From a virus: a DNA stretch of 22,419 nt. The notes beneath the pieces are model-generated. The model saw only the letters and a list, made by a program, of their open reading frames with translations, had not been told where the DNA came from and did no database searches. The DNA is taken from IMG/VR virus record IMGVR_UViG_3300042482_000009, positions 1 to 22,419 of that record; one strand, written 5' to 3'. A program made the position numbers and the translations under genes. Below are positions 14,848 through 18,594 of the stretch, one piece after another (the first letter of the stretch is position 1; each line of letters opens with the position of its first letter).

Positions 14848-15070
14848 TCAATTCCTCGTAGGCTCGTTCGCTGACCTCTCTCAAGGTTTTCAGCCAAGTC
14901 AAGATGGAAAGTTCACCTTTTCTGAACATCAAGGTCTTTTCATCAGGAATTACGCTTATATTATTGAGTGACTCTATCATATTGTCAATATCAATAATTA
15001 AATCCTTCCACCCCTGATTTCCCATCATCTCAAATCGGGATTCGTAATACTTTTGTAGGTCAGGACTCAT
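14831..15070 (-). CDS. Conserved podophage hypothetical protein, 79 residues
   Basis: Helical protein starting MSPDLQKYYESRFEMMGNQG followed by WKDLIIDIDNMIESLNNI, then DEKTLMFRKGELSILTWL and KTLREVSERAYEELNE. The combination SPDLQKYYESRF...GWKDL...K.L.FRKGEL.I..WL is one I recall from many podophages, with unknown function, near the scaffold gene. ATGA overlap with the upstream stop. No membrane span or catalytic motif. Confidence 0.78.
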   Translation of the reverse strand: MSPDLQKYYESRFEMMGNQGWKDLIIDIDNMIESLNNISVIPDEKTLMFRKGELSILTWLKTLREVSERAYEELNEKNV

Positions 15071-15288
15071 GGCATTGCCGCTTTGATCTCGTCAACCGTG
15101 GATGCTGAATCAATGGCAGTCTGCATAGCCGCATACTTCTCACGCACAGCTTGCCTTGCCGCTTCTGCCGCTGTTGCCTCTGAGGGAATGGTTGCCTTGA
15201 TGTCCAAGGGCGCAAACTCAGCAGACCTTGCTTCTCTGCGCTTGTCGTGGGCAATACCCTTGGCTTTGTCAATGTTGATGGTAATCAT
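15067..15288 (-). CDS. Small helical protein, possible fibre-assembly partner
   Basis: 73 residues. Start set at ATG 15288, which overlaps the previous stop (ATGA) and lies five bases after GGGAG; another ATG at 15300 lies further inside the previous gene. Sequence ITINIDKAKGIAHDKRREAR, then SAEFAPLDIKATIPSEATAA and an alanine-rich helix ending STVDEIKAAMP. The K.IAHDKRR..R..EF.PLD pattern is common next to fibre genes and resembles the C-terminal part of fibre-assembly proteins. Chaperone role is inferred from position and from the paired gene upstream. Confidence 0.7.
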   Translation of the reverse strand: MITINIDKAKGIAHDKRREARSAEFAPLDIKATIPSEATAAEAARQAVREKYAAMQTAIDSASTVDEIKAAMP

Positions 15289-15470
15289 GCGTACTCCCAT
15301 GCGTTACGGAATGTGCGGTCTGTTGGAATGTCAGCGACATCCACAATCTTGTAAGGCTTGCCAGCAGGGACATCCTTGGCGGCAATTTCCTCAATAGTTA
15401 AACCGCATTCAGGTGCTGGAACAATGATGGCTACACCATCGTCTGTTGGAAAAATTATTCTTTGGTTCAT
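15285..15470 (-). CDS. Small protein, possible fibre-assembly partner
   Basis: 61 residues after an AAGGA site. MNQRIIFPTDDGVAIIVPAP is a beta-hairpin-like start; then CGLTIEEIAAKDVPAGKPYK and IVDVADIPTDRTFRNAWEYA. The ending (I-P-x-D-R-T-F-R-N-A-W) is one I know from small phage genes beside tail-fibre genes, where a similar segment occurs in fibre-assembly or chaperone-like proteins. With the 73-residue gene after it, this looks like a split two-gene version of a single assembly protein. The family memory is fairly strong; the function is inferred. Confidence 0.72.
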   Translation of the reverse strand: MNQRIIFPTDDGVAIIVPAPECGLTIEEIAAKDVPAGKPYKIVDVADIPTDRTFRNAWEYA

Positions 15471-15988: not shown

Positions 15989-16807
15989 TTATTCGTAAAG
16001 GATGTTGATTGAACCAGCATCAAAGGTGTCTGTGCCGTTAGCTGTGGTAATACGAACACGATCTAAAGTTGTTGACAGCGTTTTTGTAAATCCTGAGATG
16101 TGCGCGCTTCTATCCGTTGCGCTAAAAGCCACAATACCTGCGCTTATCCATGTATTACTTCCAACTAATGTTAATGTCACGTTCCCAGACATTGTTTGTG
16201 CAGCCAAGCATGAAACTGTTGCTGCCATATAAGTCGTAGGCCACAATCCTGCCCCTGTCTGAGCGCCTGATGTTCCAACACTACCAACATAACCTGTCGC
16301 CGATATAGAACCATCACCTATTTGAACAGCTAAAGGACTCGTGCCATTCGTACTCACCCCATTAAACATCACAGTAATCCGTTTTACCCAACTCGGTATA
16401 TCTGTAAAGTTAATGCTCGTACCCGATGTAGAGTTTTGAGACACTCCACTAACCAATTGCGACCCAGTGCCCGGCACTGTTTGCATTGGATACCAAGTTG
16501 TATTTGACAACCTATATACATACGATGCCGCTGTTTTTGCTGGCAAGAATGTCACCGCATTTGACATTGACTGCCCTGTATTACCTTGAACAGTCAGTGC
16601 GGTAATTTGCTGTGATGAACTAAAAGTAATTGTCATCCCATCCGCAGGGGATGCTGGCATTGTGATTGTGCCTGTTGCTAATGTCCCCGCAGGGTTCATC
16701 ACCAAAACATTTGTTCCAGCCGCAAAGGTATATGAAAACCCTGTTGTTGGGGCTTGGTAGTCGTACTGCTGAAGCAGTCCGTTTGTGCCGTCAAGTTTGG
16801 CTGTCAT
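15989..16807 (-). CDS. Fibre-like protein, type A C-terminal module, long N-terminus
   Basis: 272 residues. MTAKLDGTNGLLQQYDYQAP opens a region (to about 115) ending in AASYVYRLSNTTWYPMQTVP, a beta-rich capping domain common in aquatic-phage fibres. From about residue 129 comes the type A module: SGTSINFTDIPSWVKRITVM, FNGVSTNGTS, a variable centre, then TLDRVRITTANGTDTFDAGS and INILYE at the end. The same two blocks recur in the genes at 16971 and 17998, with the centre diverged. This looks like a fibre head with conserved framework and variable face. The start overlaps the previous gene by 17 bases. Confidence 0.8.
   Translation of the reverse strand: MTAKLDGTNGLLQQYDYQAPTTGFSYTFAAGTNVLVMNPAGTLATGTITMPASPADGMTITFSSSQQITALTVQGNTGQSMSNAVTFLPAKTAASYVYRLSNTTWYPMQTVPGTGSQLVSGVSQNSTSGTSINFTDIPSWVKRITVMFNGVSTNGTSPLAVQIGDGSISATGYVGSVGTSGAQTGAGLWPTTYMAATVSCLAAQTMSGNVTLTLVGSNTWISAGIVAFSATDRSAHISGFTKTLSTTLDRVRITTANGTDTFDAGSINILYE
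15992..16069 (-). repeat. Type A C-terminal block, copy 1
   Basis: Encodes TLDRVRITT-NGTDTFDAGSIN and the end of the gene. Paralogous to 16974-17051 and 18001-18081. Conserved at both protein and DNA level by eye; the centre of each gene is not. Confidence 0.8.
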
Positions 16808-16961
16808 TTGTTATCTCTTGAGGTTGTTCAGCTTGCGTCTCTATCAATGCTTGCTGTTCAGCTTGTGCTACAGCCGCATCATGGGCCGCCTGTTCTTCAG
16901 GTGTGTACTCAACTTGAGTGACTTCACCAGTTTGGACATTTACTACGATTCTGTGTGTCAT
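16791..16961 (-). CDS. 56-residue conserved phage protein between fibre genes
   Basis: From ATG 16961, after AAGGA. MTHRIVVNVQTGEVTQVEYT, then PEEQAAHDAAVAQAEQQALI and a glutamine/glutamate-rich end. The MT.RIVVNVQTGEV...EYTPEEQA pattern is one I recall from small phage genes next to fibre genes, function unknown. The first half is a likely beta-hairpin, the rest a charged helix. It may be a fibre-associated or assembly protein like the pair at 15067-15470. Confidence 0.75.
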   Translation of the reverse strand: MTHRIVVNVQTGEVTQVEYTPEEQAAHDAAVAQAEQQALIETQAEQPQEITNDSQT

Positions 16962-16970
16962 GGTGTTTCC

Positions 16971-17498
16971 TTATTCATATAGGATGTTTATACTGCCTGC
17001 ATCGAAGGTGTCAGTGCCGTTGACTGTGGTTATGCGTACTCGGTCGAGAGTGCCTGTCAAAGTTACGCCACCAGCACACCATTGAGCATTGTTAGCAGTA
17101 CCTCTTCCCAAAGCGCCAGTTTCTGTCCAGACATTACTACCAAAACTAGTAATAGTCATATTTCCGTACCATAAATTAGCGGCAGCATTTGCTGCTGTAA
17201 ATATAAATCCAGCAGTAGACCTTACTGAAGTTACGCTTGCGGCATTATCACCTTGAGCGGCTGTAGCATCGTAAGATGTTGTCTGTACTGAACCAGCTCC
17301 AATTTGTACTAAAAGATTGCTTGTTCCGTTGGTAGAGACCCCATTCAACATCACCGTAATCCGCTTCACCCAACTGGGTATGCCAGTAAAGTCAATGCTT
17401 GTACCTGATGTAGAGGCAACAGCAGTGCCAGAGGTAATCCCCAGCACCGCACCTGAGTTGATTGTTACGCTTGCTGAACCATCAATGACTGTTGCCAA
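16971..17498 (-). CDS. Fibre-like protein, type A module, TTG start
   Basis: 175 residues. The only standard start in frame is TTG at 17498, eight bases after AAGGAG, which itself overlaps the stop of the homing endonuclease gene. The N-terminus is short (MATVIDGSASVTINSGAVLG). The type A module follows: SGTSIDFTGIPSWVKRITVM at about 32-51, LNGVSTNGTS, a variable centre, and a C-terminus TLDRVRITTVNGTDTFDAGS-INILYE. It lacks the long N-terminal domain of the 272-residue paralogue. Either a short fibre-head protein or a paralogue reduced during array rearrangement. Confidence 0.78.
   Translation of the reverse strand: MATVIDGSASVTINSGAVLGITSGTAVASTSGTSIDFTGIPSWVKRITVMLNGVSTNGTSNLLVQIGAGSVQTTSYDATAAQGDNAASVTSVRSTAGFIFTAANAAANLWYGNMTITSFGSNVWTETGALGRGTANNAQWCAGGVTLTGTLDRVRITTVNGTDTFDAGSINILYE
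16974..17051 (-). repeat. Type A C-terminal block, copy 2
   Basis: Paralogous to 15992-16069 and 18001-18081, closest by eye to the 18001 copy (for example both contain the 10-base CGGTCGAGAG on the + strand). Confidence 0.8.
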
Positions 17499-17510
17499 AA
17501 TATATTCTCC

Positions 17511-17996
17511 TTATGCGTGAAACATTGGATGAAATTTACTTTTTGCAAGTAAATACGCATTCGATGCTTCTTTCAAGGTTTCAAATGTACCAAGGTGAAT
17601 TTGTTTTTTATTGCAAACAATCTTGGCTCGAAATCTTTCTCCATACTTATACACGCCACGACATTGCAAAGAACCATGCGATCTTGGCTTAATGTCATTT
17701 TGCATATTTTCTTGTTGTGTAGCTTCTCGTAAATTTCCCCAGCGATTGTCCATTTTGTTTCGATTGCAATGGTCAATATAGTTCTCTGGAAATTCACCAG
17801 TCATGTACAAGTAAGCTAATCTATGCAAAAGATAGCGTTTGCCATCAATGTCAGCTTCAAGATACCCTGCTTTTGTTTTGCTACCAAGAATAGCGCCTAC
17901 TTTTTTCGCACTGCCTTTGCGGTTTTTTGCAACAACAAAATCGCCTGTTGCAGGGTTGTATGTGAAAAGTTCCTTCAATCTAGCTTGCGTAAGCAT
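17511..17996 (-). CDS. Free-standing HNH homing endonuclease with AP2 domain
   Basis: 161 residues from ATG 17996, five bases after GGAAGG; the open frame further upstream is a shadow of the preceding fibre gene. The N-terminus (LTQARLKELFTYNPATGDFV) is the usual opening of phage HNH-AP2 enzymes. The HNH core shows LLHRLAYLYMTGEFPENYID at about 56-75, HCNRNKMDNRWGNLREAT at 76-93 (His76, Asn80, Asn88 as candidate catalytic residues). A C-terminal AP2-type DNA-binding domain spans about 112-155 (RGVYKYGERFRAKIV, then IHLGTFETLKEASNAYLLAK). It would cut unoccupied alleles and spread by repair. It sits neatly between two fibre genes without breaking either frame. Confidence 0.9.
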   Translation of the reverse strand: MLTQARLKELFTYNPATGDFVVAKNRKGSAKKVGAILGSKTKAGYLEADIDGKRYLLHRLAYLYMTGEFPENYIDHCNRNKMDNRWGNLREATQQENMQNDIKPRSHGSLQCRGVYKYGERFRAKIVCNKKQIHLGTFETLKEASNAYLLAKSKFHPMFHA

Positions 17997-17997
17997 A

Positions 17998-18594
17998 TTA
18001 ACCTTCCCATAACAGATTGATTGAACCAGCATCGAATGTGTCAGTTCCATTGACGGTGGTGATGCGGACACGGTCGAGAGTTCCTGAAAGTGTTTTACTA
18101 CCCGCAGCAAAGAACATTGTGTTTGCTCCCGCCTCTCTGCTAAAAGACCCTGACCCAACCCATGCGTTGCTGCCCAACAAAGAAAATACAATGCTTCCAT
18201 TAATGGTAGCAGCCGCACCATGATTGGCGGAAGTTGTAATAAAAAAACCTGTTGTTCCGCTTTGACTTGAAGCTGATGAACTTTGAATAGAAGTGCAAGA
18301 TGTAATGTAGGAGGCGGTATCAACAGAGCCTGCTCCAAGCTGTATTTGGTACGGACTTGTGCTGGTTGTACTCACCCCATTAAACATCACTGTGATTTTC
18401 TTCACCCAACTGGGGATGCCTGTGAAATCAATAGATGTCCCACTGGTAGAGTTAACAGCAGTACCTTGCGTAATCCTTTGCAACTGCGCCCGAGACGCAT
18501 TGCTGTCAGTCCCAAAGAACTGTCCGTTGTATTCAAGGTTGCCAGCGGCTGGTGTACCAATCAGCGTGTCAGAAGTTAAAACAAGTATTGACAT
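17998..18594 (-). CDS. Fibre-like protein, type A module, third paralogue
   Basis: 198 residues. The N-terminus (ILVLTSDTLIGTPAAGNLEY, then NGQFFGTDSNASRAQLQRI) is a recurrent fibre-stem cap in aquatic phages and differs from those of the other type A genes. The module follows: TSGTSIDFTGIPSWVKKITV at about 50-69, MFNGVSTTSTS, a variable centre, and TLDRVRITTVNGTDTFDAGS-INLLWEG at the end. Ribosome site is weak (AAAGAAC). Directly followed by the homing endonuclease, whose Shine-Dalgarno lies in the last codons of this gene. Confidence 0.8.
   Translation of the reverse strand: MSILVLTSDTLIGTPAAGNLEYNGQFFGTDSNASRAQLQRITQGTAVNSTSGTSIDFTGIPSWVKKITVMFNGVSTTSTSPYQIQLGAGSVDTASYITSCTSIQSSSASSQSGTTGFFITTSANHGAAATINGSIVFSLLGSNAWVGSGSFSREAGANTMFFAAGSKTLSGTLDRVRITTVNGTDTFDAGSINLLWEG
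18001..18081 (-). repeat. Type A C-terminal block, copy 3
   Basis: Third copy of the conserved fibre C-terminus; ends LLWEG rather than ILYE. Confidence 0.8.

Follow-up and report, generated by a model that had tools for sequence, protein, structure and literature searches.

A free-standing HNH-AP2 endonuclease gene in a phage tail-gene array and its probable link to conserved type A 3' ends

The viral record IMGVR_UViG_3300042482_000009 of IMG/VR, analysed here over a stretch of 22,419 nucleotides (the window), carries a small endonuclease gene inside an array of paralogous tail genes. The earlier note on this DNA held that homing endonucleases promote gene conversion of flanking DNA, and that one placed among fibre paralogues could drive exchange of receptor-binding modules between co-infecting phages. 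The locus thus raises the question of what kind of element the gene is, what ties it to this position and whether it has a part in the variability of the array around it.

The endonuclease gene and its slot

The 161-residue protein matched PF13392 (HNH_3) with E=1.4e-14, exceeding the curated Pfam cut-off, and its best phage family was phrog_99, 'HNH endonuclease' (E=7e-55). In the alignment, D75, H76 and N97 correspond to the catalytic residues of I-HmuI (1u3e), whose numbering (D74, H75, N96) we took as quoted in the excerpted text of PMC12724721, and all three are invariant in 46 of 46 alignment rows. The loss of catalytic residues, which the earlier note had named as evidence against its reading, is thus not the case. 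An AlphaFold model built from the 46 aligned sequences reached a mean pLDDT of 91.6. In structure comparisons, residues 3-102 of the model matched I-HmuI (Z 9.2, rmsd 2.7, 90 aligned) and residues 107-161 matched plant AP2/ERF domains (TEM1, Z 8.7; WRI1, Z 8.2; AtERF1, 1gcc, Z 7.4). Pfam AP2 was not reported for the window endonuclease even at E<=10, and in its relatives the matches were weak (best 4.2e-7, under the gathering score). The HNH-AP2 assignment is borne out by the two family matches and the catalytic residues in place, and for the AP2 fold by predicted structure. I-HmuI is encoded in an intron of a Bacillus phage; the window enzyme has the same HNH fold and catalytic D-H-N, whereas its gene is free-standing and adds the AP2-fold C-terminal domain. 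Purifying selection was evident in the endonuclease pair from contigs L174 and L043 (dN 0.03, dS 0.32). The best reading is a selfish free-standing homing endonuclease of a known kind, with putative activity.

The position of the gene exactly between two type A paralogues was confirmed to the base by open reading frames and family assignment (Table 1), both neighbours, P0002 and P0003, belonging to one family (phrog_29482; type A HMM). Since P0002 ends in ...TGG GAA GGT TAA, one base before the endonuclease ATG (GGGAAGGTTAATATG), its last codons themselves form the Shine-Dalgarno-like GGGAAGG. At the other end the stop codon TAA merges into GGAG (TAAGGAG), followed after 8 nt by the TTG of P0003, so that the overlaps with both ribosome sites described in the earlier note are indeed seen in the sequence. 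Its term 'fibre array' stands as regards the array context; for the fold there are weak beta-sandwich matches. Fructofuranosidase, amylase-inhibitor and legume-lectin beta-sandwiches top the list for the type A fold with Z <=7.6 (best 7.6) and none clearly leading, so receptor binding by type A proteins is presumptive. P0003 is matched by 17 phage records (Rhizobium 9, Rhodobacter 2, Rhodovulum 2, unnamed Caudoviricetes 2, Pseudomonas 1, Aminobacter 1), and an NCBIfam search gave no family match for P0001.

Table 1. Features of the endonuclease locus (window positions)
Feature	Position	Strand	Basis and remarks
HNH-AP2 free-standing endonuclease gene, lineage 1	17511-17996	-	ATG start, 161 aa; domain, family, tree and structure evidence
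HNH_3 nuclease domain	17700-17834	-	residues 55-99; D75, H76, N97 aligned with I-HmuI D74, H75, N96
C-terminal AP2-fold DNA-binding domain (predicted)	17514-17678	-	residues 107-161; structure matches
Upstream type A tail-array gene P0002	17998-18594	-	last codons form the endonuclease ribosome site; phrog_29482, type A HMM
Conserved type A 3' end, coding ...GTDTFDAGSIN..EG	18001-18060	-	presumed homing-site side; lineage 1 always behind
GGGAAGG, Shine-Dalgarno-like, serving the endonuclease, within the upstream gene	18002-18008	-	sequence
Slot, upstream stop to downstream start	17499-17997	-	499 nt; 2 bases (TC) in L034
Right-border motif AGGAGAATATATTTTG: ribosome site, spacer, TTG start	17496-17511	-	16-mer comparison
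Downstream type A tail-array gene P0003	16971-17498	-	TTG start; ATG in endonuclease-free alleles

Endonuclease-free alleles were found among relatives of P0002 and P0003 from IMG/VR (the best 80 loci each, of more existing). At least 20 contigs have an empty junction: a mere 2-3 nt separate the stop of a full-length P0002 relative from the ATG that opens a P0003 relative, and in L027 and L037 the contig ends within the latter. Outside the array, contig L034 aligns with the window at 91.2% identity over 3698 nt and at 93.7% over 574 nt; its junction reads GAGGGT TAA TC ATG GCA ACA GTC, with 2 nt where the window has 499. Comparison of the window with such junctions places the insertion borders exactly between the genes. 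The nearest backbone among the matches listed, L026 (96.9% over 2992 nt, 93.8% over 817 nt), has in the slot of the endonuclease a 39-codon open reading frame (MTFEEWFDTLEGGYSSYEDLLRECWEAAQKAKDES..., L026:2903-3022) that gave no Pfam or PHROG family match, and the slot of L036 holds a different HNH gene, 29% identical to the window enzyme. The earlier note had taken the clean junctions to suggest an established insertion. The junctions are clean, with exact borders; that the insertion is established is doubtful, because the two nearest relatives among the matches listed are without the gene and its G+C content, 38.1%, is low beside the 45.0% of the window and the 46.1-46.5% of the two neighbour genes.

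HNH lineages at type A genes

To define the lineage of the enzyme, we scanned with A1, an alignment built from seven close relatives, and with a profile made from it. Twelve contigs including the window scored 267-288 bits and the next HNH gene 169, a gap that is in part by construction, as the profile was made from seven members; L168, L006, L174, L175 and L177, absent from the profile, still scored 267-285. L174 equals L175 wherever the two overlap and L043 matches L177 at 99.75% identity, leaving 10 distinct phages, among which L005 and L006 are close kin. This group (lineage 1) was monophyletic with support of 99/94 in one tree and 99/95 in another. Its members lie directly behind a type A stop in all 12 contigs (10 distinct phages), compared with 2 of 103 other HNH rows (L036 and L072, of other lineages), the 103 rows representing 93 loci with some contigs counted twice. 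A second scan with another alignment returned the same 11 non-window lineage-1 contigs and no new one; its 98 HNH rows comprised 10 of lineage 1 (L043 was not rescored there) and 88 others, 4 of which (lineages 2 and 3) lie behind type A genes and 84 do not. A genome-contig scan gave three HNH genes, 33-39% identical and none of lineage 1, and none of 2862 records with an HNH match in a phage collection reached >=60% identity to the endonuclease.

The gene that follows the lineage-1 endonuclease varies: a type A gene comes next in the window and in L043, a type B gene in L002, L003, L005 and L006, and others elsewhere. Because the position stays constant while the downstream gene changes, the upstream 3' end is probably the relevant DNA. 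The earlier note had proposed the conserved DNA coding for DTFDAGSIN as a place to look for the recognition site, and the constant position behind type A genes in 12 of 12 contigs makes a link to this 3' end likely. Thus the lineage-1 enzyme is probably aimed at the conserved 3' end common to type A paralogues. The 3' end alone as the site would leave the P0003 and P0004 copies cuttable in the phage's own genome, so the site would have to span the junction or need sequence differences. In 4 of 10 lineage-1 flanks another residue stands in place of the tyrosine that precedes the last glutamate, compared with 12 of 205 free type A genes (p=0.003); three of the four lineage-1 cases in this post hoc comparison fall in one subclade and two further free genes were unscorable. 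Self-resistance through altered terminal codons is only a lead.

We also compared the backbones of the carriers, the upstream flank being at least 4 kb in 9 of the 11 other lineage-1 loci and the downstream flanks 0.3-6 kb, so that the position of the capsid genes was reached in some loci only. The window has portal and major head genes, and a weak internal-virion-protein match suggests that its phage is a podovirus. Within these limited flanks, the head and internal virion genes of the window had no match in the 11 other loci. The longest match there to the 728-aa gene that ends 1.3 kb upstream of the endonuclease covers about 45 residues. L004 carries a lambda-J-like tail gene, and L003 has its own terminase adjoining the array. 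Judged by gene content, the lineage-1 carriers are phages of different make-up. Common to lineage-1 loci are type A genes, type B genes and a 45-residue piece of a 97-aa gene, and the small genes beside the array at 15285-15470 and 15067-15300 have relatives in up to 7 of the 11; the array neighbourhood, beyond the endonuclease alone, is therefore common to these phages. The L004 endonuclease groups with those of L005 and L006, whereas its backbone is closest to L043 and L174. An AU test of horizontal movement of the L004 copy was mixed: it rejected grouping this copy with L174, L043 and L007 (p=0.0003), and no longer did so once L003 was added (p=0.083); the L004 grouping with L005 and L006 was supported in one tree (95/82) and not in two others. 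Some 1.3 kb away from its lineage-1 gene, L004 has a second and distant HNH gene (L004:7810-8361, 36% identical), encoded on the other strand.

Scans in which the enzymes of L036 and L072 served as queries identified two further lineages, each monophyletic, from whose counts L254 (lineage 2, cut by the contig end) and the distant matches L255-L258 were left out. Lineage 2 (L036, L251, L252 and L253) is followed in 4 of 4 cases by a P0003-type leader (..IDG..), with the right border AAGGAGAATATATTTTG or a near variant in all four; its upstream neighbour is type A in L036 only. In lineage 3 (L072, L260, L261, L262 and L263) the next gene starts GTGTC in 5 of 5, L263 being less alike, and 3 of 5 lie behind type A genes. 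The window enzyme belongs to lineage 1, yet its right border is TAAGGAGAATATATTTTG. Among 342 sequences, exact matches to the 16-mer AGGAGAATATATTTTG are confined to the window (with its own copy L001), L251 and L252. A pattern search gave 30 distinct starts of the P0003-type leader, 2 of them TTG (window and L036), both with an endonuclease in front, and 28 ATG, none with one. Similarly, L174 of lineage 1 and L072 of lineage 3 are 94.6% identical over 204 nt, a stretch that begins at the very end of the endonuclease gene. From these borders we infer a succession of endonucleases, the simplest reading being that they replaced each other in the slots, or recombined, and kept the border of the former occupant. 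The window slot has probably changed occupant in this way, its right border apparently coming from the slot of a different HNH lineage.

Other HNH genes were seen at the arrays. A further lineage (100/98) lies directly in front of type A genes (L033:4875-5411, L126:3950-4480, L006:4832-5407), and in L006 one type A gene is flanked on both sides by endonucleases of different lineages. In L020 an HNH gene (L020:1031-1552) lies directly behind a type B array gene, and the P0002/P0003-type junction there is empty.

Tail-module exchange and the endonuclease

In type A proteins a variable middle part lies between conserved ends; their genes occupy 15989-18594 in the window and occur in 111 contig groups. 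To relate core replacement to the endonuclease, 170 type A open reading frames remaining after duplicate removal, 9 of them with an endonuclease behind, were split by motif, and 104 pairs from different contig groups with leaders >=88% identical over 90 nt were compared. In endonuclease-free pairs, core identity was <60% in 92 of 100, 60-80% in 8 and >=80% in none. Cores were likewise <60% identical in 3 of 3 pairs with one endonuclease, all involving the window, and in the single pair with two (L043 of lineage 1 and L072 of lineage 3), four pairs being too small a sample to detect a modest extra effect of the enzyme. L034 and L026, both endonuclease-free, differ in the cores of both flanking genes, with 75-97% identity per 20-codon window over the first 60 codons. 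The pairs with an endonuclease and the endonuclease-free set show equal replacement, so core exchange needs no endonuclease. Replacement of type A cores is near-total between the conserved ends.

A local identity peak around the insertion, which the earlier note had suggested looking for, was sought by blastn of the lineage-1 loci and by codon windows across the window, L034 and L026 and across L005 and L006. Among the relatives compared, no peak could be credited to homing, none being separable from mosaicism. The endonucleases of L005 and L006 have 3 differences in 495 nt, the type A genes ahead of them are unrelated, and the break lies 22 nt upstream of the start codon; much of the upstream block is also 99-100% identical. 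We set aside a Fisher p of 1e-7 for this pair (3/495 in the endonuclease against 54/914 upstream), since the upstream block is patchy with several windows at 99-100%. In L174 and L043 a block from -56 to +483 is 92% identical between replaced flanks. The breaks in both pairs lie at the conserved 3' end, 22-56 nt before the endonuclease, and so fall at the usual end of type A homology.

Probable homing, its alternatives and their bearing on phage arrays

Taken together, we consider it probable (about 0.7) that the window gene is an intron-less HNH homing endonuclease of a lineage specialised on type A 3' ends and copied into its slot by homing. In such a mechanism the enzyme would join an I-HmuI-type nicking or cutting domain to an AP2-fold DNA-binding domain. 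During co-infection it would cut an endonuclease-free allele, at the conserved type A 3' end or close to it, and the gene would be copied into the slot when the cut is repaired with the endonuclease-bearing genome as template; cutting, target site and transfer are steps that we infer from the comparison of loci. The cost to the host phage would be low, as the gene borrows upstream codons as its ribosome site and supplies one for the next gene. The right border of the window would derive from a slot once occupied by another HNH lineage. Against this explanation, the cut site may lie elsewhere, free-standing endonucleases of T4 being described in the excerpted review PMC2988022 as cutting hundreds or thousands of bp away. 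In its favour, the window encodes, at 123-862, a YqaJ-family exonuclease (PF09588, E=1.2e-22), followed by a single-strand DNA-binding protein (phrog_18154); these are recombination functions of the phage's own that homing repair could use.

The other objection is that lineage 1 might travel in larger tail cassettes by ordinary recombination. The gene would then be an ordinary passenger of whole segments, made up of a type A 3' end, the endonuclease and the next gene, that homologous recombination exchanges at the conserved ends of genes and at ribosome-site junctions, with a minor role for the nuclease today. Arrays are shuffled everywhere, two lineage-1 loci have the right borders of other lineages (lineage 2 in the window, lineage 3 in L174), and the other array-side genes common to lineage-1 phages slightly favour this explanation. 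It remains doubtful all the same, as a site-specific active mobile gene better explains the constant association with type A 3' ends across 10 of 10 distinct phages, the absence from the closest relatives among the matches listed, the catalytic residues in place and a dN well under dS. Domestication, in which the gene would be fixed and non-mobile with a phage role such as packaging or regulation, could account for the clean translational coupling on both sides; at least 20 related contigs without the gene at the junction, including the close relative L034, the short frame in its place in L026, another close relative, and the presence of lineages 2 and 3 in comparable slots of other phages make it very improbable.

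The proposal that the endonuclease drives receptor-binding module exchange, by cutting in the array of a co-infecting phage and causing gene conversion of type A cores, fits the co-conversion of flanking DNA by homing endonucleases of T-even phages (in the excerpts of PMC2988022), the near-identical endonucleases of L005 and L006 behind unrelated type A genes and the conserved block between replaced flanks in L174 and L043. We nevertheless judge it improbable: core replacement was equally complete without the enzyme (92/100 pairs <60%, 0/100 >=80%), both cores differ between the endonuclease-free L034 and L026, and the L005/L006 endonuclease forms no clear peak, the upstream sequence also being 99-100% identical in much of the block. 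The suggestion with which the locus was first singled out is thus not supported.

Homing by a specialised lineage has parallels in other phages. Free-standing HNN-AP2 genes in the Xanthomonas oryzae phages Xp10, OP1 and Xop411 have the same domain pair and vary in presence between related phages; in the excerpted account (PMC2248197) they are dispersed with no conserved flanks, whereas the window lineage is tied to the 3' end of one gene family. The I-HmuI-like HNH genes of lactococcal Skunavirus cluster by insertion location, distinct ones share a location, and marker exclusion occurs (excerpts of PMC12724721). The match of phylogenetic clusters with insertion locations, the use of one location by distinct enzymes and the variable presence are alike here, whereas the Skunavirus work concerns one genus with marker exclusion measured, and the present case differing phages and a tail-gene array, read from sequence alone. 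As excerpted from PMC2988022, the free-standing T4 mob and seg genes are intergenic, several of them being promoter-less cassettes that overlap the upstream gene, and in relatives different endonucleases target the same genes, as mobE and hef do with nrdB. The window gene resembles them in these respects; the T4 examples (Table 1 of that review, in the same excerpts) lie at other genes, compared with a slot at type A genes here, and the free-standing ones cut at a distance. In cryoconite phages, homing endonucleases and tail genes are among the commonest genes of variable islands (excerpts of PMC7468147), and a 2026 paper, also excerpted, describes SegB amplifying anti-defence genes (PMC13096335). 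In a search that covered few subscription papers, none of the titles or abstracts among the matches listed linked endonucleases to a family of tail paralogues.

The conserved ends of type A genes may, on a more tentative extension of the homing model, form a common landing strip for competing endonuclease lineages across differing phages, with lineage 1 reading the upstream 3' end, lineages 2 and 3 the downstream start, and mutual replacement leaving chimeric borders like that of the window; we think this less likely than not. If it were true, one enzyme could cut a rival array at several places and hop between paralogues, because the presumed target recurs behind each type A gene.

Overall, the gene is likely an ordinary kind of selfish gene whose limits are unusually clear; it has a probable target, and there are signs that endonucleases compete for the same slots. 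Free-standing homing endonucleases are common in phages; this one is useful as the empty allele, the borders, the position of the lineage and the neighbouring lineages are all readable, and the case defines a short testable target, made up of the junction and the type A 3' end before it. It also serves as a control against a tempting story, since the modules of hypervariable tail arrays recombine equally without the enzyme: the presence of an endonuclease in a probable host-recognition locus is by itself no evidence for host-range exchange.
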